A stretch of 64,000 nucleotides of DNA from a virus, in the IMG/VR virus record IMGVR_UViG_3300036834_000211, positions 50,542 through 114,541 of that record; one strand, written 5' to 3'. Shown piece after piece: positions 1,729-63,166 of the stretch (its first letter is position 1; each line of letters starts with the position of its first letter). The notes under the pieces were generated by a model. It saw only the letters and a program-made list of their open reading frames with translations. It made no database searches and had not been told where the DNA came from. The translations under genes were made by a program, and so were the position numbers.

Positions 1729-1956
1729 CTAGCGAGCCAGGTTCCAGGCCGGGACACTTCTCGACATGCACGCGTAGTACGGCAAGGCCGCGCCGGGTTC
1801 GACTGTCCCACCATTCGCATCGTTCATCTCCATGGCCTTCGCCTTGCAGGTACTCGCGGAGGGATGATTGGAAGTCGTCTCGTCCCACGGTATGACGCCC
1901 GTGCACGGCTGGTTGATGCCGTACCAGCATAGGAAGATCGCGTAGATCGTATTCAT
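1729..1956 (-). CDS. Small secreted Cys-containing protein
   Basis: A 75-residue protein. ATG 1956 is chosen because AGGA lies 9 nt upstream; an upstream in-frame GTG (1974) has a ribosome site only directly abutting it. The N-terminus MNTIYAIFLCWYGI is hydrophobic and could act as a signal or anchor, and four Cys follow. The style (short hydrophobic start, then a polar Cys-bearing tail) resembles the gene at 29826, though similarity is too weak to call homology. It lies antisense between tube and chaperone genes, with an operator-like palindrome in its upstream region. Function unknown. Confidence 0.5.
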   Translation of the reverse strand: MNTIYAIFLCWYGINQPCTGVIPWDETTSNHPSASTCKAKAMEMNDANGGTVEPGAALPYYACMSRSVPAWNLAR

Positions 1957-1998
1957 TTTATCAGATCCTATCACTTCTCATCCGTGATGTAAGCGCGC

Positions 1999-2014
1999 TT
2001 GCGAAAATTTGCAA
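1999..2014. promoter_or_regulatory. Operator-like palindrome, TTGC-N8-GCAA family
   Basis: TTGCGAAAATTTGCAA, in the gap between the divergent genes starting at 1956 (minus) and 2038 (plus). It matches the TTGC-N8-GCAA sites found at 19604, 53728, 60984 and 62530. A binding site for a phage repressor is inferred. Confidence 0.55.
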
Positions 2015-2037
2015 GACTCCACTGAGAGAAATGTTCA

Positions 2038-2253
2038 ATGCCACGTCGAATCTGTCCTACCTGCCACGGGCTGCGTTCCGTCCGCTACGGTGCGGGAATC
2101 TATAGGTGTCCCACGTGTCTCGGATCGGGAGGTGTTCCGCTCGGATTGGCTCCCCTAGACATCTCGCCAGTGGAGCGTCAGAGCGGTCTCAGTCGAGCCG
2201 ACACCCACGTCTCCAGGGGCCGCCCCCCGCCCATACCGGGACCTCCCAGGTAG
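2038..2253 (+). CDS. Small protein with two CPTC zinc-binding motifs
   Basis: A 71-residue protein. The first 35 residues hold two CPTCxG knuckles spaced about 19 residues apart (CPTCHG and CPTCLG), like one half of a DnaJ-type zinc domain. The C-terminal half is Pro, Arg and Gly rich and may be unstructured. A weak GAGAGA lies upstream of the ATG, and the operator-like palindrome at 1999 precedes it. Function unknown; metal binding is inferred from the motif only. Confidence 0.5.
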   Translation: MPRRICPTCHGLRSVRYGAGIYRCPTCLGSGGVPLGLAPLDISPVERQSGLSRADTHVSRGRPPPIPGPPR

Positions 2254-2265
2254 TGGAGGAGCCTA

Positions 2266-2838
2266 GTGCTCAGTTCAGATTGGACCCGCCAGTATGGCAG
2301 TCGGAAGGTCAAGATCGTGACGATCCCCGGCGTCCGGTCCGAGCAGCCCGGACAGAGGGACAACGGCAAGAGCTTCCTGCTGGTGGAGATGGCCGCGCGT
2401 CCAGCGGAGAAGTGGGCGAACCGCGCCTTCCTCGCACTGGCCCACTCCCGGGCCGACATCCCACCCGGCATCGCCGAGAGGTACGCGAGGGTCCGAGGGG
2501 ACATGCGTCAGATCGAGGCCATCGCCGGCCTGCTGGGACACATGCACTTTCCCGAGATCGAGCCCCTCATGGACGAGTTGATGGGTTGCGTCAGCTTCGT
2601 CATCAATTCCGGACCCCCTCCCGTCACCAGATTGCTGAACGATTCCGGCAGCGTGGACGACGACGTCGAAGAGATCTCCACTCGCCAGCACCTGCGCGCG
2701 GAGGTCATCGATCTCCACGTGGGTTTTTCCGTGCCCGCCGCGGTCATCCTCTTGATCTCGGTGGGCTCGACGATGACGGAGATTTCGGAGCCGACCTCGT
2801 CGAGTACCCGAACGTCCCGCCGACGATCGCGGCGATAA
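2266..2838 (+). CDS. Tail assembly chaperone, short form
   Basis: A 190-residue protein starting at GTG with GGAGGA 5 nt upstream. The pattern KIVTIPG, then GKSFLLVEM, AEKWANRAFLAL, and LHVGFS near residue 153 matches the tail assembly chaperone that precedes the tape measure in DUF3383 phages, functionally like lambda gpG. It would bind the tape measure during tail assembly and be absent from the virion. After residue about 153 the zero frame continues into a Ser, Thr and Arg rich tail, while the family-like C-terminal domain lies in the -1 frame (see 2266-2987). Confidence 0.75.
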   Translation: MLSSDWTRQYGSRKVKIVTIPGVRSEQPGQRDNGKSFLLVEMAARPAEKWANRAFLALAHSRADIPPGIAERYARVRGDMRQIEAIAGLLGHMHFPEIEPLMDELMGCVSFVINSGPPPVTRLLNDSGSVDDDVEEISTRQHLRAEVIDLHVGFSVPAAVILLISVGSTMTEISEPTSSSTRTSRRRSRR

Positions 2839-2987
2839 TCTCGTCGTCCTCTGGCAGGGCAATGGCGACCTTGCACGAATTGGATACGGTATACGGGGTC
2901 GAGGATCTCTACGACATGCTGGAGGTCCTGGAGGTGGATGCTCACAATAAGCGCATCGCGCAGGCTGCTCTGAACAAGAGAGACTAG
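2266..2987 (+). CDS. Tail assembly chaperone, long form by -1 frameshift
   Basis: The frame -1 to the short chaperone stays open to 2987. It encodes a segment with VPPTIAAIISSSSGRA, then LHELDTVYGVEDLYDMLEV and a VDAHNKR motif, the classic C-terminal domain of tail chaperone T extensions. The ribosome can reach it at GGGTTTT (2721-2727), read as G GGT TTT in the zero frame. The product would be about 240 residues, with the shared N-terminus followed by FRARRGHPLDLGG. This arrangement is the lambda G/GT logic. Frameshifting itself is inferred. Confidence 0.65.
2721..2727 (+). other. Slippery heptamer for -1 programmed frameshifting
   Basis: GGGTTTT fits X-XXY-YYZ in the zero frame (codons GGT TTT). 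It sits exactly where the chaperone similarity passes from the zero frame to the -1 frame. The GC-rich run just downstream could form a stimulatory structure. Confidence 0.6.
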
Positions 2988-2988
2988 G

Positions 2989-4716
2989 GTGGCTACGGTT
3001 ATAGATGAACTCGTGGTCCGCCTAGGCCTCGACCCGACCGACTTCGACGAGGGCGAGGCCAGGCTCATCGCATCCCTGCGCAGGATGGAGGCCGCGGCCC
3101 AGCGCGGTGGTCGCCAGGTGACCGACACGGTCGGCAGGGACACGATCGCCTTCTTCCGCGCAGTCGAGAACCCGATCTCCGGGCTGCGACGGACCTTCGA
3201 GGGCATGGTACTCCAGACCGAGCGCACCCGCGAGAGCCTGCGGAAGACCGGCGAGGAGGGCGAGGCGTCCGGCGAACGCGTGGCCCGCGGTACGTCTGCC
3301 GCGACCGCGGCGATGCGCGGCCTCGGCGTCGCCGGCCTTGCCGCCTTCGCTGCGTACGAGGCGCTGAGCAAGACGCTCGGTGCAGTCACCGACGTCGCCG
3401 GGCGAGTGTTCGCCACCGGGATAGGTGCCGGTGCTGCCGGCATGGGTATCACCCAGTTCGGTGCGATCAGCCAGGCGCTGTTCGCTGGTGGCAACGTACC
3501 CCAGGCCGAGACTCAGAACTGGCTGGCCCAGTACTCCGAAATGCAAGGGCAGGCTGCCAGGGGTATCAGCCCCGGCATTGGCTTCATAACCAACCTGAAC
3601 AAGCTCCTCAACCAGGAGACCTTCACTGGCATCGACCCATTCCGAGACTCGCCCGAGCAGATAATAACCAAGCTGGCCGCCCAGCTCTCCGCCATGCCGG
3701 AGGCCCGGGCGTACAGCGCCGGCAATGCCCTCGGGCTGAGCCGGCAGATGGTCTCGGGCCTGCGCGCGGAGGGTGAGCGACTCCCGGCCGACATCGCGGA
3801 GCAGCGACGCAGGGCCCCGACCGGCGAGGATCTGAGGGCCGCGCAGCGCCTGATTCTGGCCGAGGACAAACTGGCCACGGCGTGGGAGAAGCTCGAGCGC
3901 GACCTACTACTCAGCGGTATTGCCGAGGGCCTGACCAGGTTGGCGTCGTGGCTCGATACGCTGATAGCCCCCGGATCCAACGACCCCCGCGGGTTCCTGG
4001 GGCGCTTCTTCGGCGGATCTCGCCCGGAGTACGGAGAGGGGGCAGTGGTCAGCGGAGGCTCCGGGGGACAACTGTCGCAGGTCGTCGCCGGCGGCCAGGC
4101 CGACCAGTTGGTCGACTACATCATCAAGCACGAGGGTCACTCCCCCACCGGCGTCGTGAACAACCCGGGCAACATCAAGTTCACCGGCGCCGAGGGGCAG
4201 ACCGACTCCGGCGTCCGCGCCACCGACGGCGGCACCTTCGCGTCCTACCCGACGCCGGAGGCTGGCCGCGCCGCCATCGCCGCTCAGATCAATAGGGCCG
4301 CGAGCGGACTGTCCACTGCGTACGGTCCCAATCCTACCGTCAGCAGTTTCTTGAGCAAGTACAGCGGCGGGGGATACAGCGGCTCGGATCTGGCCATCGC
4401 ACCACCGCCACCGACGACTCCTCCTCCCGCTGGCAAGCCCAGTACGGTGCACGTACCCGACCCGCTGGACTGGATACTGGGGCCGGTCGACCCGGTGGCG
4501 AAGGCTCCCATTCCCGCCAAGCAGGCTGCCCTTCGCTCCATCCAGATGGCAAACGCGACGAATAACACGTCGACGACGCACAACTACGGTGACCAGCACG
4601 TCGACATCACCGTCAACGCCCCGACGAGAGAGGCCACCGCAATTGCCAACTCGGTCAGCGACCAGGTGAGGCAGCTTCCGCCCATGGCCGGACCGGCCAA
4701 CACGGGTCTGGCGTGA
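2989..4716 (+). CDS. Tail tape measure protein with lysozyme-like domain
   Basis: A 575-residue protein starting at GTG 2 nt after the chaperone stop. The N-terminus (DELVVRLGLDPTDFDEGEARL, then heptad-like Glu, Arg and Ala runs) is typical of tape measures. Residues about 100-160 are Ala and Gly rich and hydrophobic and probably membrane-interacting. Residues about 375-445 hold a peptidoglycan-hydrolase-like module (HEGHSPTGVVNNPGNIKF, then TFASYPTPEAGRAAI). A Pro-rich linker and Asn and Thr rich tail follow. It sets tail length; at 575 residues the tail would be short if the usual length relation holds. The embedded hydrolase would help wall penetration. Confidence 0.85.
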   Translation: MATVIDELVVRLGLDPTDFDEGEARLIASLRRMEAAAQRGGRQVTDTVGRDTIAFFRAVENPISGLRRTFEGMVLQTERTRESLRKTGEEGEASGERVARGTSAATAAMRGLGVAGLAAFAAYEALSKTLGAVTDVAGRVFATGIGAGAAGMGITQFGAISQALFAGGNVPQAETQNWLAQYSEMQGQAARGISPGIGFITNLNKLLNQETFTGIDPFRDSPEQIITKLAAQLSAMPEARAYSAGNALGLSRQMVSGLRAEGERLPADIAEQRRRAPTGEDLRAAQRLILAEDKLATAWEKLERDLLLSGIAEGLTRLASWLDTLIAPGSNDPRGFLGRFFGGSRPEYGEGAVVSGGSGGQLSQVVAGGQADQLVDYIIKHEGHSPTGVVNNPGNIKFTGAEGQTDSGVRATDGGTFASYPTPEAGRAAIAAQINRAASGLSTAYGPNPTVSSFLSKYSGGGYSGSDLAIAPPPPTTPPPAGKPSTVHVPDPLDWILGPVDPVAKAPIPAKQAALRSIQMANATNNTSTTHNYGDQHVDITVNAPTREATAIANSVSDQVRQLPPMAGPANTGLA

Positions 4717-5393
4717 GCGGATTACCTCCCCTGCTCCTGCTGACCCAGGATGATCTCAGCATACTGTCGGAGTTCGGTCCACCGCAGTGGGGCATCTTCG
4801 ACGAGGGCGGGCAGCCCGTACTAATCTCGGAGTCTGTCGGAGAACTCGGGTACCACCGTGGGTACGACGTCTCAAACTATCCCCAGGAGATGGGGGCGTT
4901 CGCCAGCTACAACAAGGTTCAGATCCCCTACGACGCGAGGGTGACGCTGCTGTCCAGCCAGACGCGGGGACAGCTCCTCTCGATACTCGAGCCGGTTGCG
5001 GCGTCGCTCCAGTTGGTGGCGGTCGTGATGCCGGAGTACGGATACCCCAGCGCCAACGTGGTGGACTACGAATTCCGGCGCACGGTCAGGAGCGGCGTTA
5101 CACTAATTGCGGTGGAGGTGAGGCTCAAGGAGATCCGGACCCCGACTACCTCCACACTCTCCAGTTCTCAAGGTAACTCCACCTCGCCCGCCGGAGCCGG
5201 AGCCGGAACCTCGAGGCCCGTCGGACAGGTGAGCAACCAGGCGCTGGGAGGTGGACTCACCTCCAGCCTGTTCCCGTCGGCGACCAGCACCAGCTCGACG
5301 AATGCCGCTTTCCCGACTCAGAGCGGACCGGTCCAGCCGACGGATCGGTCGTCCCTCACGTCGCCCTGGGTCGCCATCCAACCCCCGACCTGA
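4713..5393 (+). CDS. Baseplate protein following the tape measure
   Basis: A 226-residue protein starting at GTG that overlaps the tape measure stop (GTGA). The core WGIFDEGGQPVL, then DYEFRRTVRSGVTLI and VEVRLKEIR matches a conserved protein placed directly after the tape measure in small-baseplate myophages, where it forms part of the baseplate core at the tail tube end. Residues beyond 150 are Ser, Thr and Gly rich and low complexity. The exact structural position is inferred from gene order. Confidence 0.65.
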   Translation: MSGLPPLLLLTQDDLSILSEFGPPQWGIFDEGGQPVLISESVGELGYHRGYDVSNYPQEMGAFASYNKVQIPYDARVTLLSSQTRGQLLSILEPVAASLQLVAVVMPEYGYPSANVVDYEFRRTVRSGVTLIAVEVRLKEIRTPTTSTLSSSQGNSTSPAGAGAGTSRPVGQVSNQALGGGLTSSLFPSATSTSSTNAAFPTQSGPVQPTDRSSLTSPWVAIQPPT

Positions 5394-5404
5394 GTGTAAA
5401 GTCG

Positions 5405-6649
5405 ATGCGCAGCCGACTCGGTCTCCTCCTCACGATCCTCCTCGTGCTCTCGCCCGCCGCGGCGAGGGCCCAGACCGCGTGCACGGTTCTCCCCCAGTCG
5501 TCCCTGCTCAATCTGTTCTCCGACGCCGCGCCGGTGGCCTCGATCGTCCCTGCCTACGTGCGCAACGCGATCTGTAGCTCTCTCAATCCGACGAATAATC
5601 TCTCGGACGTGGCGTCGCAGCAAACGTCGATAAATAATCTATTCGGACCTAATACTTATTTGAAGATCCTGGGTAGTGGGGCATTATCCGTTCCGTCATA
5701 TACATCATTGTCCACGCAGGGGACTCTGTCGGGAACGCCTGCGGGATCTTCGATTGATGTCAATTATGGGTCTACGACGCCACTCTCGACCATAGCAGTA
5801 ATCAGCGATACTGCGACGAATCAGCTGTTGGGAGGAGTAATACCAGCTCTCAGCATAGCTCACACGTTTGGCGGTACTGGAGCCGGTCCAGGCGCTCGAC
5901 AGGGGATTTTTGTTGATCTTGTCCAAAATGGAAATGTCGGTTCCGGTACGGGAGCCTTTCAAACTGGGATCTTTTCGAATGTGTGGGCCAGGAGCGGAAC
6001 CGGCGGCGGCCAATTCTACGCCTATGCAGGACAAGTAATCGACGACCTAAACGTCTCTCACTATGGTACGGTCGGTGGCGAGATCGACTTGGCATTGCAC
6101 CAGCCTGGGGCTGGGATCAAAGAAGGATGGGCGGTTGCGTCCACCCCGTTGGGGAGCGGGAACGACACACAGCAAGGTACCAACTATTCGGCCGGCTATG
6201 GGCTGTGGGCCGGCGGCTCGTGCGGGAATGGTGCACTCGCCGGGGGGAGCGCCTGCGCCGGCTTCAACACAGGCATTTCGTTCGGCCGCTCCGATAGTTA
6301 CTGGCCCATTTCCAACGCCGGTACGGTGATCGCCGCAACGCAAGGGGTCGGCACGATTGGTAATATGAAGGCGGCGCAGGGCATCGACATGCACAACGTC
6401 ACCTTCAGCACTTACGCGCTGAATTTCCCTGGATTCCAAGTCACTGGCGACGGCAGCCTATTTGCCGGCGGCGCATCGGGTCTCGGCGTGGCTAAGCAGT
6501 CGAGTGGTCCGGGTGCTGGACCGGGCGCCGCGGTCGTCAGGATAATTGCATTGCCGGGCACAACGGGAGGCACCTGCAAACTGGTGGCCTATGCCGGCAC
6601 GAGCACCACGGGTGTGCTCTTGGCTGATAACATTGGTAGCGGGTGCTGA
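5405..6649 (+). CDS. Fibre-like structural protein with N-terminal signal peptide
   Basis: A 414-residue protein. Residues 1-24 read as a Sec signal peptide (basic n-region, Leu-rich core, then AAARAQ). The rest is Gly, Ser, Ala and Asn rich with no catalytic motif, typical of fibre or virion surface proteins. From about 5570 to 6000 the codon use turns more AT rich than the flanking tail genes, suggesting a mosaic insertion. It is embedded among baseplate genes between the post-tape-measure protein and the plug. A secretion leader is unexpected for a virion part assembled in the cytoplasm. Receptor binding or a secreted role are both possible. Confidence 0.6.
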   Translation: MRSRLGLLLTILLVLSPAAARAQTACTVLPQSSLLNLFSDAAPVASIVPAYVRNAICSSLNPTNNLSDVASQQTSINNLFGPNTYLKILGSGALSVPSYTSLSTQGTLSGTPAGSSIDVNYGSTTPLSTIAVISDTATNQLLGGVIPALSIAHTFGGTGAGPGARQGIFVDLVQNGNVGSGTGAFQTGIFSNVWARSGTGGGQFYAYAGQVIDDLNVSHYGTVGGEIDLALHQPGAGIKEGWAVASTPLGSGNDTQQGTNYSAGYGLWAGGSCGNGALAGGSACAGFNTGISFGRSDSYWPISNAGTVIAATQGVGTIGNMKAAQGIDMHNVTFSTYALNFPGFQVTGDGSLFAGGASGLGVAKQSSGPGAGPGAAVVRIIALPGTTGGTCKLVAYAGTSTTGVLLADNIGSGC

Positions 6650-17888: not shown

Positions 17889-18380
17889 TTATACCGCCAT
17901 TGACATCAACATCTCGGTCACGGCTGAGAAGGCCACGTTGACTCTCCCTTGCGACAATCCCAATCTCTTCCGAAAGTAGGCTCGGGCCTTGTGGGCAGTC
18001 AGGTCCATCGCCGCCACGTCGTTGAGTACCAAATCCACCATCACGCGCGCGTCCTCAGGCAGGTCGCGGATCAGCTCGGTCAGGAGCAGATTTCGATCTG
18101 GTGCTGGCATCGACCGATCTGGCATCCCCTCGTCGAGTTCGTGTGTAATGGGATGTACGCGCTTGTGCCGGTCGGTTATCCCACACAGGTGACGATAGAC
18201 GCAGTATGTGGCAAACGTGTTGAATGACGACTTGCGCGGGTCGTACTCGACGTTACCGAGGACGCCCTGCTCGGCATTCCAGCGGGCTATCCGAGCCTCC
18301 TGCAGCAGGTCGTCGAGGTCCATACCGCTCGTGGTGGAAAACGAGTAGGCGTACTTGAGTACCGCCGGGTGGTCTTTCAT
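17889..18380 (-). CDS. RNA polymerase sigma factor (short, phage-encoded)
   Basis: A 163-residue protein; ATG 18380 has GGAG upstream and overlaps the previous stop in ATGA. Residues about 4-70 match sigma-70 region 2 (KYAYSFSTTSGMDLDDLLQE, then SSFNTFATYCVYRHL), which binds the polymerase clamp and melts the -10 element. The C-terminal 60 residues (LPEDARVMVDLVLND to VNVAFSAVTEMLM) are helical and may be a diverged region 4. It is shorter than normal sigma factors. It would redirect host polymerase, plausibly to late promoters. The gene ends a minus-strand operon beside the tail genes. Confidence 0.75.
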   Translation of the reverse strand: MKDHPAVLKYAYSFSTTSGMDLDDLLQEARIARWNAEQGVLGNVEYDPRKSSFNTFATYCVYRHLCGITDRHKRVHPITHELDEGMPDRSMPAPDRNLLLTELIRDLPEDARVMVDLVLNDVAAMDLTAHKARAYFRKRLGLSQGRVNVAFSAVTEMLMSMAV

Positions 18381-19213: not shown

Positions 19214-19520
19214 AGTTGTCCTTCCACCTAATGATCCACTCGTCCCACTTTTCCGGGTCGAGTAGGGTGAACCTGCCGCTTGGCGCGACCGCGTAGATGC
19301 AGATGCCGAAGGTCCAGTCTCGTTCTCTCGCATAGCGCACTGCCCAAGGGAAGATCTTGAACCGCGTCTCCTTGCGTCCGTTGCGCAATTCGAAGACCGC
19401 GAAGTACGAGGCCCGGTCGAACACGGCGGCCATCCAGTCATACTGGGACTGTCCGAAGTCGTGCTCCGACCTGCCCCTGGGGGCTGTCAGTGGCTGTTGG
19501 TGGCTGGTGGGCATGTGCAT
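19194..19520 (-). CDS. Hypothetical protein, first gene of the sigma operon
   Basis: A protein of about 108 residues. The start is uncertain: ATG 19520 has AGG 7 nt upstream, but it lies very close to a possible -10 element, so a later Met (before AAVFDRASYFAVFEL) is possible. The core AAVFDRASYFAVFELRNGRK, then YARERDWTFGICIYAV and a Trp-rich end (WDEWIIRWKDN) is a compact alpha-beta domain of unknown function. The divergent operator region lies upstream. Confidence 0.5.
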   Translation of the reverse strand: MHMPTSHQQPLTAPRGRSEHDFGQSQYDWMAAVFDRASYFAVFELRNGRKETRFKIFPWAVRYARERDWTFGICIYAVAPSGRFTLLDPEKWDEWIIRWKDNYDSIRR

Positions 19521-19549: not shown

Positions 19550-19603
19550 GCGAAAATTGCACGTTTCCGCAAAAAAAAAATGCATCAAACCCCAAAATAG
19601 GGC

Positions 19604-19631
19604 TTGCAGTTTTCTGCAAACCTGCTACTAT
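19604..19631 (+). promoter_or_regulatory. Promoter overlapped by a perfect TTGCAG-TTTT-CTGCAA operator
   Basis: TTGCAGTTTTCTGCAA (19604-19619) is a perfect palindrome. Its first half is also a -35 box; a -10 TACTAT lies 16 nt on (19626-19631), and the first gene starts at 19657. The stretch from the palindrome through the next 8 bases is identical to the opposite-strand sequence in front of the 62493 gene. A repressor bound here would block the promoter. Confidence 0.65.
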
Positions 19632-58766: not shown

Positions 58767-58945
58767 TCCGTCTCCTCTTCCTCATCTGAAAGATGATGTT
58801 CGTCATAGTGCATGTAGTTCCAGTGCCTCGCGACGTCTTGCTTCTTGGTCTTCCACTTCCTGTACGGAGTGATGTAGTTGCAGTCGCGGCAGCCGTGCTT
58901 TCCGTCCCCCTTGTAGACGATCAGATGTGCGGGCGAGTTGTTCAT
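58763..58945 (-). CDS. Small C2H2 zinc-finger-like protein
   Basis: A 60-residue protein. CRDCNYITPYRKWKTKKQ, then DVARHWNYMHYDEH contains a Cys pair and a His pair with C2H2-like spacing and a basic helix, as in zinc fingers. The C-terminus is very acidic (SDEEEETE). TAATG overlap with the helicase stop. DNA binding is inferred. Confidence 0.6.
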   Translation of the reverse strand: MNNSPAHLIVYKGDGKHGCRDCNYITPYRKWKTKKQDVARHWNYMHYDEHHLSDEEEETE

Positions 58946-60759
58946 TAGAATGGTACCTCGTCCTCGACTAGATCGTTGATCTGCTCGACGACCTCCTTCC
59001 TCCTCTCCTCCAGCGCCCGAAGCGCCTCCGACGTCGCGTCGATCGCTGCTAGTAGCGGATCGGGTTGTGGTGCCTCGATCGTCGGCGTCCTCGCGTCCAT
59101 TGCCGTCGTGATCGTCTCCTGCTTGTCGATGGTCATGTTGGCCATCCAGGAGTCTACGCTGTTGACGAACACCAAGTGCTGGACTAGGACACTGCCGACC
59201 TGACCAATCCGGTGGAGTCGGTCCTCGCACTGGCTCATGTTGCCCGGGACCAGGTCCTCCTCGGCGAAGATCGCGAGCTGTGATGCCGTCAGTGTCAATC
59301 CCACACCCGCCGCTCGGATCGACCCGATGAATAGACGGCAGAACGGGTCGTGCTGGAACCGGTCGACCTCGTCCGTCCTCGCCGCCGCCGGGGTCTCGCC
59401 GGTGACCACGGCTGCGGTCGGGAACGCTTCGCGCAGCGCGTGGGCCACGTCGTGATGATAGATGAAGACGACCACCTTGTCGACGTTTTCTAGGCACTCC
59501 GTCACGTGGCTGATGACGTGCGGTATCTTGGCAACGGCGGTGGCGTGCCTGAGGGCTGCTATCTCCGCGAAGCCCACCTTCAGGTGTCCGTGCAGCTCGC
59601 GCATCGCCGCGACGTAGGCCTCTCGGTCGCCGACCCTCTTCGCCTCCTTGGCGGCCTCCTCGGCCCGATCGATCATCTGCTTGTGACGCTGGAAGGCGGA
59701 CCACTCGCGCTGGACTGTGCTCGAGGCCCCGTTGGTCGGAATGACGATGATCTGGCGTTGCTTGGGCGGCAGCTCGGTCAGGACGTCGGCCTTCAGGCGC
59801 CGGATCATGAACTTGGAGCGCAACTTGGTCTGCAGCTCCTCCAGGTTGGAGGCACCCGAGAAGTCCCAGCCGTAGCCGTTGTGCGTCGCGCCGCAGTAGC
59901 GCATGGCGAATTTGAAGAACGACTTCCCCAGATCGCCCGGGTCGACCTCGTGAACCAGCGTCCACAGTTCCTTTGGTCGGTTGACGATCGGAGTGCCGGT
60001 CATGTACACTCGGCGCCGTGCCTTGACGGGGGTCTCCATCGGTGGGCGGATGCCCCGCTCCACCTCAGCCTTGGTTGGCTTGCGCCGGCCGCCGTATAGT
60101 GCCCGGACGCGCCGGACCACCGCCGGCTCACCCTTGGCGAGGTGGCACTCGTCGACCGCTAGCAGGTCCCAATTGACTTGATCGATCGCCTCGCGATGTC
60201 GGTGGAGGATGTCGTAGTTGATGATGACGATGTCATCATCTGGGAACTGGTCGCCCTCGACGATACCGATCGTCATCGGGACGACGAGCCACTTCGTCAG
60301 CTCGCGTGCCCAGTTGATCTTGAGCGATGCGGGGCAGATGACCAGAACGCGACGGATCGTCCGATCGGCGTTGATTAATCCGCCGACCTCTATTGTTTTT
60401 CCTAATCCCATCTCGTCTCCGAGCAAGGCGTCGTTGTGATCGACGATCCACTCGATCCCGGCGAGCTGGAATGGTTTGTACGCAAGCCCCTCGGGCGCCG
60501 GCACCCGGATGGCTGCGCTCGTCGCCCTGCTGGCTTCGATGCTCGCGTTGACCCTCGCCACCTGCTCCTGAGCCTGCTGCATGGCGCTGGGGTCCAGCCG
60601 AGCGGCGGCGACTGGATCCCGCGTGTACCACAGTTTCTCGGTTGGTGAGAAGAACCAGCCGGCCTTCTTCACGACCTCCTTGGTCTCGTGGGACCACTTG
60701 AATCGAGCGAGCCAGCGCTCGCCCTCCTTGGTTATCGCGATGTGGTTGATCTGGCTCAT
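58945..60759 (-). CDS. SNF2-family helicase (SMARCAL1-like)
   Basis: A 604-residue protein with GGGAGAGGA upstream of its ATG. Motif I is GDEMGLGKTIE, Ia VICPASLKINW, II LLAVDECHLAKG (DECH), III YMTGTPIVNRP, and the C-terminal lobe ends with QCEDRLHRIGQVGSV (motif VI). An N-terminal segment WLARFKWSHETKEVVKKAGW resembles the substrate-recognition extension of annealing helicases. It would remodel forks or displace proteins. The acidic C-terminal 60 residues are helical. Confidence 0.85.
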   Translation of the reverse strand: MSQINHIAITKEGERWLARFKWSHETKEVVKKAGWFFSPTEKLWYTRDPVAAARLDPSAMQQAQEQVARVNASIEASRATSAAIRVPAPEGLAYKPFQLAGIEWIVDHNDALLGDEMGLGKTIEVGGLINADRTIRRVLVICPASLKINWARELTKWLVVPMTIGIVEGDQFPDDDIVIINYDILHRHREAIDQVNWDLLAVDECHLAKGEPAVVRRVRALYGGRRKPTKAEVERGIRPPMETPVKARRRVYMTGTPIVNRPKELWTLVHEVDPGDLGKSFFKFAMRYCGATHNGYGWDFSGASNLEELQTKLRSKFMIRRLKADVLTELPPKQRQIIVIPTNGASSTVQREWSAFQRHKQMIDRAEEAAKEAKRVGDREAYVAAMRELHGHLKVGFAEIAALRHATAVAKIPHVISHVTECLENVDKVVVFIYHHDVAHALREAFPTAAVVTGETPAAARTDEVDRFQHDPFCRLFIGSIRAAGVGLTLTASQLAIFAEEDLVPGNMSQCEDRLHRIGQVGSVLVQHLVFVNSVDSWMANMTIDKQETITTAMDARTPTIEAPQPDPLLAAIDATSEALRALEERRKEVVEQINDLVEDEVPF

Positions 60760-60771
60760 GGTCCTCTCCCT

Positions 60772-60921
60772 CTAGGCGAATTTTTGAGCAAAGGTACGTG
60801 CGTCGTCTAACGATCGGAAATACCAGAAGCTCGCACGATATTGGACTGCATATGGTCGTCGGTTGCGCCTGGTTGCGCCGATGAAGATTTTGGTGGGGCC
60901 GATGCTGTCAATTTGGATCAT
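60772..60921 (-). CDS. Small basic hypothetical protein
   Basis: A 49-residue protein with a strong AGGAGG 6 nt upstream of its ATG. Sequence pattern IQIDSIGPTKIFIGATRR, then PYAVQYRASFWYFRSLDDA, a basic strand-rich fold ending in a short helix, like an Arc/AP2-type mini-domain. It is the first gene after the 60984 operator region. Function unknown. Confidence 0.6.
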   Translation of the reverse strand: MIQIDSIGPTKIFIGATRRNRRPYAVQYRASFWYFRSLDDARTFAQKFA

Positions 60922-60983: not shown

Positions 60984-60999
60984 TTGCAGAAAATCGCAA
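60984..60999. promoter_or_regulatory. Operator-like palindrome upstream of the helicase unit
   Basis: TTGCAGAAAATCGCAA fits TTGC-N8-GCAA. On the minus strand a further TTGCGA lies 9 nt downstream of the palindrome, with CATATT 17 nt beyond it, leading into the 60921 gene. A second promoter inside the minus-strand operon is inferred. Confidence 0.55.
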
Positions 61000-61007
61000 A
61001 AATCTAC

Positions 61008-61079
61008 TTAGCTGACTGCCCAGCAGAGGATCGCCGCGAGCAGGATTGCCCACGGCGCGAGCGCGCCGAGCCAGGTCAC
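61008..61079 (-). CDS. Tiny membrane peptide (tentative)
   Basis: A 23-residue frame starting at GTG that overlaps the alpha-CTD gene stop (GTGA). Almost entirely hydrophobic (WLGALAPWAILLAAILCWAV). The coupling is the only support for translation. Confidence 0.35.
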   Translation of the reverse strand: MTWLGALAPWAILLAAILCWAVS

Positions 61080-61546
61080 GGCACCCTCCGCAGTTCGAGA
61101 CCTACATTGTCGAGGACCTCGACGACCTCGCGGAGCGAGCGCCGGCCGAAGTGCCTCAGTGAGAGCAGCTCCTCCCTCGACTTGGACGCGAGGTCTCCAA
61201 TCGTGGTGATGCCGGCAATGCGCAGGCAGTTGATGGATCGTACCGACAGCTCTAGATCGTCGATGCTCCGGTCTGATACCCTGGCGATCCGTATTGCTTC
61301 GGTACCGCCGAACAGGGCCTCCTCCATCGAGGTGAGGTTCCCGAGTTCCCTGATTAGCTCACCGCGCCGCCGCAGGATCTCCGGGTAGGCCTGTCCCTGG
61401 TAGATCTTGCGCTCCCGCTCGGGGTCCACCTTCCGATCGGTGAAGATGCCGGCCGTAGATATGCGATCGGTGTAGCCTGCTGCCTTGGGGCGGAACCACG
61501 CCTGGTGGTAGTTGGACCAGATGAGGTATGGTAGGTCGGCCATCAC
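61076..61546 (-). CDS. Protein with RNA polymerase alpha C-terminal domain
   Basis: A 156-residue protein with GGAG upstream. Residues about 95-150 (IDDLELSVRSINCLRIAGI, then IGDLASKSREELLSLRHFGR and SLREVVEVLDNVGLELR) match the bacterial alpha-CTD. The residues that bind UP-element DNA in E. coli alpha (R265, N268, C269, G296, S299, E302) have identical counterparts, and K298 is Arg. The N-terminal part starts with a short phage domain (YLIWSNYHQAWFRPKAAGYT). It could recruit or titrate host polymerase at phage or host promoters. Confidence 0.8.
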   Translation of the reverse strand: MMADLPYLIWSNYHQAWFRPKAAGYTDRISTAGIFTDRKVDPERERKIYQGQAYPEILRRRGELIRELGNLTSMEEALFGGTEAIRIARVSDRSIDDLELSVRSINCLRIAGITTIGDLASKSREELLSLRHFGRRSLREVVEVLDNVGLELRRVP

Positions 61547-61734
61547 TCGTGCTCCTCGTATGGATGTAGAACCTTGTCGATGAAATCGCCGAGCGTCAGC
61601 TCCACGCGCACGTCGGCGACTACGACTCCGGTGACTAGGACGTGCTCGTTCTCGCCGAGGTTCTTCCTGGCGAGGCGGAGGGTCTTCAGGAGTCGCAGTG
61701 CGTCCTCTGCGTTCAGGTCACCATTGAAGTTCAT
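61543..61734 (-). CDS. Small hypothetical protein
   Basis: A 63-residue protein; ATG 61734 is chosen for AGGAG 7 nt upstream. An in-frame ATG 61782 overlapping the DUF6011 stop would add 16 residues. Pattern NAEDALRLLKTLRLARKNLG, then VTGVVVADVRVELTLGDFID. ATGA-coupled to the alpha-CTD gene. No family recognised. Confidence 0.5.
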   Translation of the reverse strand: MNFNGDLNAEDALRLLKTLRLARKNLGENEHVLVTGVVVADVRVELTLGDFIDKVLHPYEEHE

Positions 61735-61778: not shown

Positions 61779-62207
61779 TCATATTCCCATCTTGCCGATG
61801 CACTCGGGGCCGAAGCCCCGGTCGATCGACTCGTCGACGGTCAGCTTGCGACCGCACCGCCCGCAGGTGCCGGCGTGCCTGACCTCGACCTCGGGGGGCA
61901 TTCGCCCCGCGTCGACGTGCTGCCAGAAGTAGCGGAACGCCCGGACCGGCACCGAGTCTTCCTTGTAGCGGGACTTGCCGGTGAGTTTGAACGTCCCGTT
62001 GATCACTCCCACGTAGCTGTAGTCCGATTCGTTGTCCGGGCCGGTCAGGAGCCCGACGAACCACAGATCCTTGTACTGCTCTCGCGGTCCGTCCTTGGCT
62101 CGGCTGACCTTGTAGGTGTACCGCGCGCCGGTGCGCTGGCTCGTGAGTGTCAGGGTCGCGTGCCCGGCCAGAGTGTAGGTCTTGACGTCTGCTGCGTTGT
62201 CGAACAT
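61779..62207 (-). CDS. DUF6011-type zinc-finger protein
   Basis: A 142-residue protein with GGGGG upstream. The C-terminus CGRCGRKLTVDESIDRGFGP followed by EC is the DUF6011 motif, a four-Cys zinc knuckle common in phage proteins. The N-terminal 110 residues (ATLTLTSQRTGARYTYKVSR) are beta rich and include YSYVGVING. Function unknown; often near phage regulatory genes. Confidence 0.7.
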   Translation of the reverse strand: MFDNAADVKTYTLAGHATLTLTSQRTGARYTYKVSRAKDGPREQYKDLWFVGLLTGPDNESDYSYVGVINGTFKLTGKSRYKEDSVPVRAFRYFWQHVDAGRMPPEVEVRHAGTCGRCGRKLTVDESIDRGFGPECIGKMGI

Positions 62208-62220
62208 CTCAAACCCCCTT

Positions 62221-62493
62221 TTATAGCGTCACGTCGGTGCGGCGGATGCAACTCGGATGCTTCTTCGAGTAAACCCGCTTGAGTGTGAATCCGAGGGCTT
62301 CGAAGCAGGATTCGGCGTCGACCATCATGGTCGGAAAGCGCAGCCTCGTGTCCATCCTGATGCAGCTTACTAGGTATGAGACAGACTGGCTCCCGTCCGG
62401 GCACTTTGCCAGGTGCTCCAGGATGTAGGTTTGAAGGGTCTCGACCTGCTTTGGGCTGAATCGGATCGTCGAGTTCCAGAGATCTATGTCCAT
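62221..62493 (-). CDS. Small hypothetical protein, first of the right minus operon
   Basis: A 90-residue protein with GAGG upstream of its ATG. Helical N-terminus (SPKQVETLQTYILEHLAKCP) and a basic C-terminus (LKRVYSKKHPSCIRRTD). It lies directly behind the operator and promoter at 62530. Function unknown. Confidence 0.55.
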   Translation of the reverse strand: MDIDLWNSTIRFSPKQVETLQTYILEHLAKCPDGSQSVSYLVSCIRMDTRLRFPTMMVDAESCFEALGFTLKRVYSKKHPSCIRRTDVTL

Positions 62494-62517: not shown

Positions 62518-62545
62518 AATTTAGCAGGTTTGCAGAAAACTGCAA
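62518..62545 (-). promoter_or_regulatory. Minus-strand promoter overlapped by a perfect operator
   Basis: TTGCAGAAAACTGCAA (62530-62545) is a perfect palindrome. On the minus strand TTGCAG is a -35, with TAAATT 16 nt later as -10. From the palindrome through the next 8 bases the sequence is identical to the plus-strand promoter at 19604. It drives the 62493 to 58662 operon and would be shut by the operator-binding protein. Confidence 0.6.
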
Positions 62546-62582
62546 GCGAAAAATGCATCAACCTGGAAAAAAAAAATGCCTC

Positions 62583-62611
62583 TTGCAGGAGTGGAGCCTC
62601 TGCTTTATACT
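62583..62611 (+). promoter_or_regulatory. Plus-strand promoter of the late operon
   Basis: TTGCAG, a 17-nt spacer and TATACT. It drives the NusG-like gene at 62675 and the fibre gene behind it. The A-rich run just upstream (62566-62577) could be a UP element for an alpha-CTD. The palindrome at 62530 lies about 40 nt further up. Confidence 0.65.
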
Positions 62612-62674: not shown

Positions 62675-63166
62675 ATGGGTTGGTCGGTCGTATTGACTTA
62701 TGGTACCTGCGAGCGCAAGGCCGTTGAGAACCTCAAACGTCAAGATTACGAATCTTTCTGTCCGCTCTTCGAGCGTCCCAGTAAGTCCAATCTGACGCAG
62801 ACGGTTGAGACCCCACTGTTCCCGTGCTACATATTCGTGAGTATCGAACCGGAACAGCCGTGGCATAGTATTAACAGCACGCCCGGTGTCGTTCGATTGC
62901 TGACCGATCGGAATCGATTAAATCCGAAGCCACTCTTCGTACGCGACGAGAAGGTCGATGAGATCCTAGCCTGGTCCAGGACCGCCGAGGATCCGCTCCC
63001 CGCCGGCACCTTGGTGCGAGTGCGCGGTCGGACTAATCCATTCTACGACATGACTGGCACTGTCGTGGGAATGGACAAGCTGATGCGCGTCTCGGTGTTG
63101 ATGAGCGTGTTCAATCGCGACGTGATAGTCGAGTTTGTGCATCCCGCCGAGCTCGAGAAGCTGTAG
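62675..63166 (+). CDS. NusG/RfaH-like transcription factor
   Basis: A 163-residue protein with the NGN domain (WSVVLTYGTCERKAVENLKR, QDYESFCPLFE, TPLFPCYIFVSIEP, TPGVVRLL) and a C-terminal KOW-like part (RVRGRTNPFYDMTGTVVGMD). It would bind the clamp of RNA polymerase and prevent pausing or termination. Placed first behind a strong promoter and ahead of structural genes, it probably works as an operon-specific antiterminator like RfaH. No specific recruitment site (ops) was identified. Confidence 0.85.
   Translation: MGWSVVLTYGTCERKAVENLKRQDYESFCPLFERPSKSNLTQTVETPLFPCYIFVSIEPEQPWHSINSTPGVVRLLTDRNRLNPKPLFVRDEKVDEILAWSRTAEDPLPAGTLVRVRGRTNPFYDMTGTVVGMDKLMRVSVLMSVFNRDVIVEFVHPAELEKL

Follow-up and report, generated by a model that had tools for sequence, protein, structure and literature searches.

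A Free-Standing RNA Polymerase Alpha-CTD Protein Encoded at a NusG/Helicase Locus of a Phage

Locus and gene organization

We describe here a gene of a tailed phage whose product carries the C-terminal domain of the RNA polymerase alpha subunit (alpha-CTD) outside RpoA, together with its neighborhood, its promoter regions, and its relatives in other phages. The window, meaning the whole stretch of DNA analyzed, is 64,000 nucleotides long and comprises bases 50542-114541 of a 114,541-base virus record (IMG/VR IMGVR_UViG_3300036834_000211). Unless otherwise specified, coordinates are those of the window. The locus contains the following features.

61076..61546, minus strand: alpha-CTD protein gene (open frame; preferred ATG at 61543, 155 aa)
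61418..61543, minus strand: small phage domain at the N terminus (residues 1-42), LIWSN.H.AW.RP..GYT....AG
61274..61384, minus strand: predicted linker helices, residues 54-77 and 80-90 of the AlphaFold model
61109..61279, minus strand: RNA polymerase alpha-CTD domain, residues 89-145 (PF03118, AlphaFold, Foldseek)
61543..61734, minus strand: 63-aa ORF, stop overlapping the alpha-CTD gene start; translational coupling likely
61779..62207, minus strand: DUF6011 protein (phrog_20259) of the alpha-CTD operon
62221..62493, minus strand: 90-aa ORF, first in the operon
60772..60921, minus strand: 49-aa ORF upstream of the helicase
58945..60759, minus strand: SNF2-family helicase, downstream neighbor of the alpha-CTD gene
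62675..63166, plus strand: NusG/RfaH-type paralog, divergent neighbor (PF02357, E=1.9e-17)

The leftward operon is ordered 90-aa ORF, DUF6011 protein, 63-aa ORF, and alpha-CTD protein, after which come the 49-aa ORF and the SNF2 helicase. The likely start codon of the alpha-CTD protein gene is an ATG one codon past a GTG, with GGAG upstream, and the base composition of the gene at each codon position resembles that of its neighbors. The 63-aa ORF had no family match. The NusG paralog scored 58 bits against TIGR01955 (RfaH), under the cut-off, and had no match among annotated phages and one weak match in IMG/VR. For the ribonucleotide reductase of this phage, the closest annotated phage is Bradyrhizobium phage BDU-MI-1 (43%).

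Domain architecture

Residues 89-145 match the Pfam family RNA_pol_A_CTD (PF03118) at 78.3 bits (E=3.5e-22; curated cut-off, 23.8 bits), and the protein is the single PF03118 match in a search of the whole record (E=1.5e-23). Among solved chains, its best matches are all to RNA polymerase alpha (top match, 1z3e, E=1.3e-14). AlphaFold modeled residues ~90-150 with a pLDDT of 93-98, and Foldseek aligned the model with RpoA alpha-CTDs (8y5t, TMt 0.94 and rmsd 0.4; 1z3e, TMt 0.95 and rmsd 0.7), with matches that include DNA-bound alpha-CTDs, such as Caulobacter 9zum. Non-RpoA models (e.g., BREX PglW and a 95-aa hypothetical protein) match alpha-CTD-like segments, all below cut-off. The identity of the C terminus as an alpha-CTD is far past chance.

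No alpha-NTD was found in the protein. The NCBIfam rpoA models align with it by their C-terminal part only, far under cut-off (75 bits versus 277), and the alpha-NTD is therefore absent. Relative to RpoA, the protein has the same Pfam domain and fold, keeps nearly all DNA-contact residues, and shares about 43-57% identity with its best bacterial matches, but it lacks the alpha-NTD and has another N-terminal domain, so the usual assembly into core polymerase is impossible. The preliminary description of this DNA had proposed just such a free-standing alpha-CTD, with a small phage domain replacing the alpha-NTD. The first part is borne out by the HMM match, the predicted fold, the Foldseek alignments, and the absent alpha-NTD, and the second by the recurrence of residues 1-42 in proteins of other phages.

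The domain formed by residues 1-42 recurs in ORFs of Azospirillum phage Cd, Synechococcus phage Ssp-JY42, and Erythrobacter phage ZS04 that are hypothetical or carry no annotation, and it is also present in five IMG/VR contigs. PHROGs returned a weak match to phrog_7674 and nothing more. The domain has a low-confidence fold in the AlphaFold model of the window protein; a model of one other member shows strands around a helix (pLDDT 77), and a fold search of the PDB gave no match (best E about 1). Single-sequence scans of IMG/VR with the full-length protein and with its N-terminal part, which used exact 8-residue patterns and were weak, found no relative. The N-terminal motif is present in 0/80 of the IMG/VR alpha-CTD proteins described below, and the exact architecture has therefore so far been seen only in the window phage. 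In Azospirillum phage Cd (L006), the ORF with the W.RP..GYT domain (2842-3282) is unannotated and lies opposite annotated gene 74, possibly a mis-called gene.

Contact residues

The E. coli alpha-CTD positions compared here are those that, from established knowledge, we take to contact DNA, sigma, and CAP. In E. coli numbering, R265, N268, C269, G296, S299, and E302 of the DNA-contact set are identical in the window protein and K298 is replaced by R, so that seven of the eight positions are identical or conservative; the exception is N294, which is H. The description of almost all UP-element contacts as kept thus stands, with six of eight identical, K298R, and N294H. As read from the alignment, a putative 265-determinant for UP-element binding is present. 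The acidic sigma-facing residues D258, D259, and E261 are present as well and form a predicted patch facing sigma region 4. The CAP-facing 287-determinant (T285, E286, V287, E288, R317) reads S, R, E, E, V and is not kept; CAP-facing positions 286-287 and 315-317 vary among phage alpha-CTDs.

Among 46 non-redundant phage alpha-CTDs, E302 is found in 44, G296 in 42, N294 in 38, and K or R at position 298 in 39. Positions 294, 296, 298, 299, and 302, which fall outside the search patterns that recruited these sequences, have a mean conservation rank of 11 of 61 (permutation p<5e-5). The apparent conservation at 257-265 and 266-269 is biased because the search patterns covered those positions, and the retention of contact residues is partly inheritance from RpoA, in which positions 294, 296, 298, 299, and 302 are invariant (50/50).

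Free-standing alpha-CTD proteins in other phages

A pattern-limited scan of IMG/VR yielded 88 loci, of which 80 were kept, so that the count is a lower bound (at least 80 contigs). An alpha-NTD motif was present in 0/80. The complete ORFs are 97-564 aa long (median, 154), and their N termini differ widely. The best 80 cellular matches, by contrast, are ordinary RpoA to the extent that their contigs show (two contigs are cut). Free-standing alpha-CTD proteins appear to be common and varied in phages. In a 71-column tree of alpha-CTDs from phages (47) and RpoA (50), 61 of 94 inner branches are open, and a single phage clade was not rejected (p-AU 0.22).

Inspection by eye revealed a sigma region-4-like HTH and an alpha-CTD in one chain at L008, L018, L019, L022, L031, L036, L047, L064, L069, L070, and L087. 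Pfam Sigma70_r4 was detected in all four of the fusions scanned (L022, E=2.4e-18; L008, 1.1e-15; L018, 4.8e-10; L019, 2.3e-6), for which no sigma region 2 was listed; L008 additionally contains a Cro/C1-type HTH. Fusion to a sigma region-4-type HTH ties the alpha-CTD module to promoter recognition, and these fusions and their diversity exceed existing annotations.

UniProt and one genome paper (PMC9127768) already name phage alpha-CTD proteins, and a phage alpha-CTD without alpha-NTD is already known as a kind, by annotation. A0A6J5QDR9, Rhodococcus phage Finch A0A2P1JY10, and Erythrobacter phage vB_EliS-L02 ORF40 (PMC9127768) are, like the window protein, phage-encoded alpha-CTDs outside RpoA. 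They are known only as annotation names; the identity of the named structural matches to the window protein is 18-37%, and its N-terminal domain was not noticed in any of the named proteins on overall inspection. The "RNA polymerase subunit alpha" of Bacillus phage Goe8 (QDP42789.1; 210 aa) has a C-terminal alpha-CTD and no alpha-NTD, as in the window protein, but it has another N terminus and belongs to a Firmicute-infecting phage. No functional study of any phage alpha-CTD protein was found in the open-access literature searched. New here are the architecture, the syntenic N-terminal swap, the co-occurrence with a sigma-like protein and a NusG paralog, and the seven-copy promoter dyad.

The phage hits also include MT835508.1 (L007), filed as phage, which at 1751-3208 contains a full-length bacterial rpoA followed by a ribosomal-protein-like ORF and is therefore probably a chromosomal fragment. 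Several other hits filed as phage resemble it.

Related phage L177

The locus is conserved in the IMG/VR contig L177, whose helicase is 67% identical to that of the window. In L177, an alpha-CTD gene (5093-5506) precedes the helicase, with a NusG-like gene divergent from it. The alpha-CTDs of the two phages share 55% identity and the N termini are not recognizably related, which suggests that the alpha-CTD may be under selection at the NusG/helicase locus, with an exchangeable N terminus. In relatives with 55-58% identical helicases, no alpha-CTD was seen in the partial contigs available; either part of the group can do without the protein or those contigs happen not to include its gene. The L177 alpha-CTD protein begins with MSDKV, similar to the frame immediately 5' of the 63-aa ORF of the window. 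The window NusG paralog lies directly 5' of a long putative fiber-type gene, and L177 is arranged alike.

Promoter regions, A-tracts, and dyads

The promoter regions contain the following features; the dyads are given without strand.

62567..62576, plus strand: A10 tract of the divergent promoter region, a candidate site for the alpha-CTD
62583..62611, plus strand: predicted NusG paralog promoter, TTGCAG-N17-TATACT, read by eye
62518..62545, minus strand: predicted alpha-CTD operon promoter, TTGCAG-N16-TAAATT, read by eye
62530..62545: dyad TTGCAGAAAACTGCAA (TTGC-N8-GCAA), one of seven perfect copies
60984..60999: dyad upstream of the 49-aa ORF/helicase promoter; L177 is arranged similarly
19604..19619: dyad in the 19.6 kb promoter, with an A10 tract at 19571
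1999, 19557, and 53728 of the window and base 19297 of G000: remaining perfect TTGC-N8-GCAA copies

An automatic promoter scan listed neither the predicted NusG paralog promoter nor that of the alpha-CTD operon. The 114.5-kb record contains three A/T runs of at least 7, two of which are A10, at 19571 and 62567. Both lie inside the intergenic regions of the 19.5 and 62.5 kb promoters, near which A-tracts had been reported in the preliminary description. The tract at 62567-62576 spans -51 to -42 of the predicted NusG promoter and -56 to -65 of the predicted alpha-CTD operon promoter. It would thus be within or near UP-element range of both and is a sensible candidate for an alpha-CTD site.

A 25-bp cassette, CTTGCAGTTTTCTGCAAACCTGCTA, which contains the TTGC-N8-GCAA dyad, is identical at 19603 (plus strand) and 62522 (minus strand). 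Perfect dyads number seven in 114.5 kb versus about one expected, and the spacing of 8 stands out (seven copies versus 0-2 at other spacings). By ORF-map reading, the copies in the window lie between main genes, mostly at predicted promoters, and both promoter regions of the L177 locus carry similar dyads. The dyad is probably the operator of a phage regulator; at the A-tract promoters it may belong to an HTH regulator other than the alpha-CTD protein.

Other transcription genes

The following gene encodes a possible partner.

17889..18380, minus strand: sigma-like protein, Sigma70 region 2 (PF04542, 27.3 bits; cut-off, 24)

Homologues of the sigma-like protein are 54% identical in the L177 phage and 38-39% identical in two others (three or four contigs). 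No sigma region 4 was found in the virus record by a search whose control worked. A single-subunit polymerase model had no match in the record, and its control likewise matched nowhere. The combination of a sigma-like protein, a NusG paralog, and an alpha-CTD protein suggests reprogramming of the host polymerase.

Interpretation

Our leading reading, held tentatively at a probability of roughly 0.45, is that the alpha-CTD protein binds DNA as an accessory factor and directs host polymerase at phage promoters rich in A/T. The conserved DNA-contact positions, the sigma region-4 fusions of other phage proteins, the NusG and sigma-like genes, and the L177 locus speak for it; the H at position 294, the helicase that follows in both phages, the relatives whose partial contigs gave no alpha-CTD, and the by-eye reading of the promoters speak against it. 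The domain and its fold, the retained residues, the missing alpha-NTD, and the conserved neighborhood are computational findings; beyond these, we infer DNA binding, a sigma contact, a role for the N terminus, and a direction of regulation as follows. As at UP elements, the alpha-CTD would hold A/T-rich DNA by its minor groove upstream of promoters, and the acidic patch facing sigma region 4 would seat the protein beside the sigma that host RNA polymerase carries at the promoter. The phage-specific part would be the N-terminal domain and helical linker, through which the protein would dimerize or would dock to polymerase or to another protein of the phage. Overall, phage promoters would be favored or retimed, for example, the divergent promoter of the NusG paralog and the alpha-CTD operon. 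The earlier suggestion of an adaptor or decoy would fit the retained DNA- and sigma-facing residues and the adjacent NusG paralog. A precedent is known from Bacillus, in which isolated alpha-CTD binds promoter DNA in gel shifts and complexes there with Spx (PMC2801614); in that system, Spx serves as the partner of an alpha-CTD that RNA polymerase normally keeps tethered.

Two other roles are each unlikely. As a decoy or inhibitor, the free alpha-CTD would occupy UP elements or soak up host activators or alpha-CTD-modifying enzymes, and rRNA and other strong host genes would be transcribed less. The retained DNA-contact residues agree with this, as does the fact that phages do act on alpha-CTD, which LUZ19 Rac cleaves off and T4 Alt/ModA ADP-ribosylate at Arg265 (PMC7552054; PMC2988021). 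However, variable phage-specific N-terminal domains and the sigma-4 fusions of relatives exceed what a decoy needs, and activator capture is made less likely by the lack of conservation of the CAP-type activator surface. With about the same low probability, the alpha-CTD would be only a generic DNA-binding module, a helix-hairpin-helix grip that serves replication, recombination, or packaging with the SNF2 helicase. The helicase follows the alpha-CTD gene in both phages, so a DNA-replication role is possible, and the below-cut-off matches of BREX PglW and the 95-aa hypothetical protein show models other than RpoA with alpha-CTD-like segments. Against this stand the retained residues facing sigma region 4, the fusion of relatives to sigma region-4-type domains, and the other neighbor, which is a NusG paralog.

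Less probable again is a docking mimic that chiefly binds proteins, such as alpha-CTD-recognizing regulators or the phage sigma-like protein, with DNA secondary. The alpha-CTD is a known protein-docking surface, for example, in Spx complexes (PMC2801614; Foldseek matches 3gfk and 1z3e), and the phage has a sigma-like protein that is conserved in the L177 relative. The most constrained positions of phage alpha-CTDs, however, include the DNA-contact set. Bacterial contamination or an rpoA fragment, known from some phage-filed records (e.g., MT835508.1), was rejected as having a negligible probability, as phage genes flank it, its N-terminal domain is a phage one, and the independent phage contig L177 shows synteny.

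Beyond the promoter accessory role proposed for this one protein, phages may repeatedly capture alpha-CTD with exchangeable N-terminal modules and so produce untethered, trans-acting promoter-recognition factors that work on host RNA polymerase, a wider claim that we regard as doubtful. The modules would be sigma region 4-type HTHs, Cro/C1-type HTHs, and small phage domains. The known systems T4 MotA/AsiA, Alt/ModA, and LUZ19 Rac are likewise means of phage control over host transcription initiation, but they modify, cleave, or bypass alpha-CTD, whereas the window phage supplies its own. An alpha-CTD supplied in trans would be a strategy unlike these and would probe how far alpha-CTD function depends on its tether. 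Given the sigma region-4/alpha-CTD fusions and the N-terminal swap in synteny, the function of the class is directly testable. If repeated capture is true, it would let a phage exchange the upstream-recognition half of the holoenzyme and keep the polymerase itself, and the window phage would add a sigma-like protein and a NusG paralog of its own to a captured alpha-CTD.
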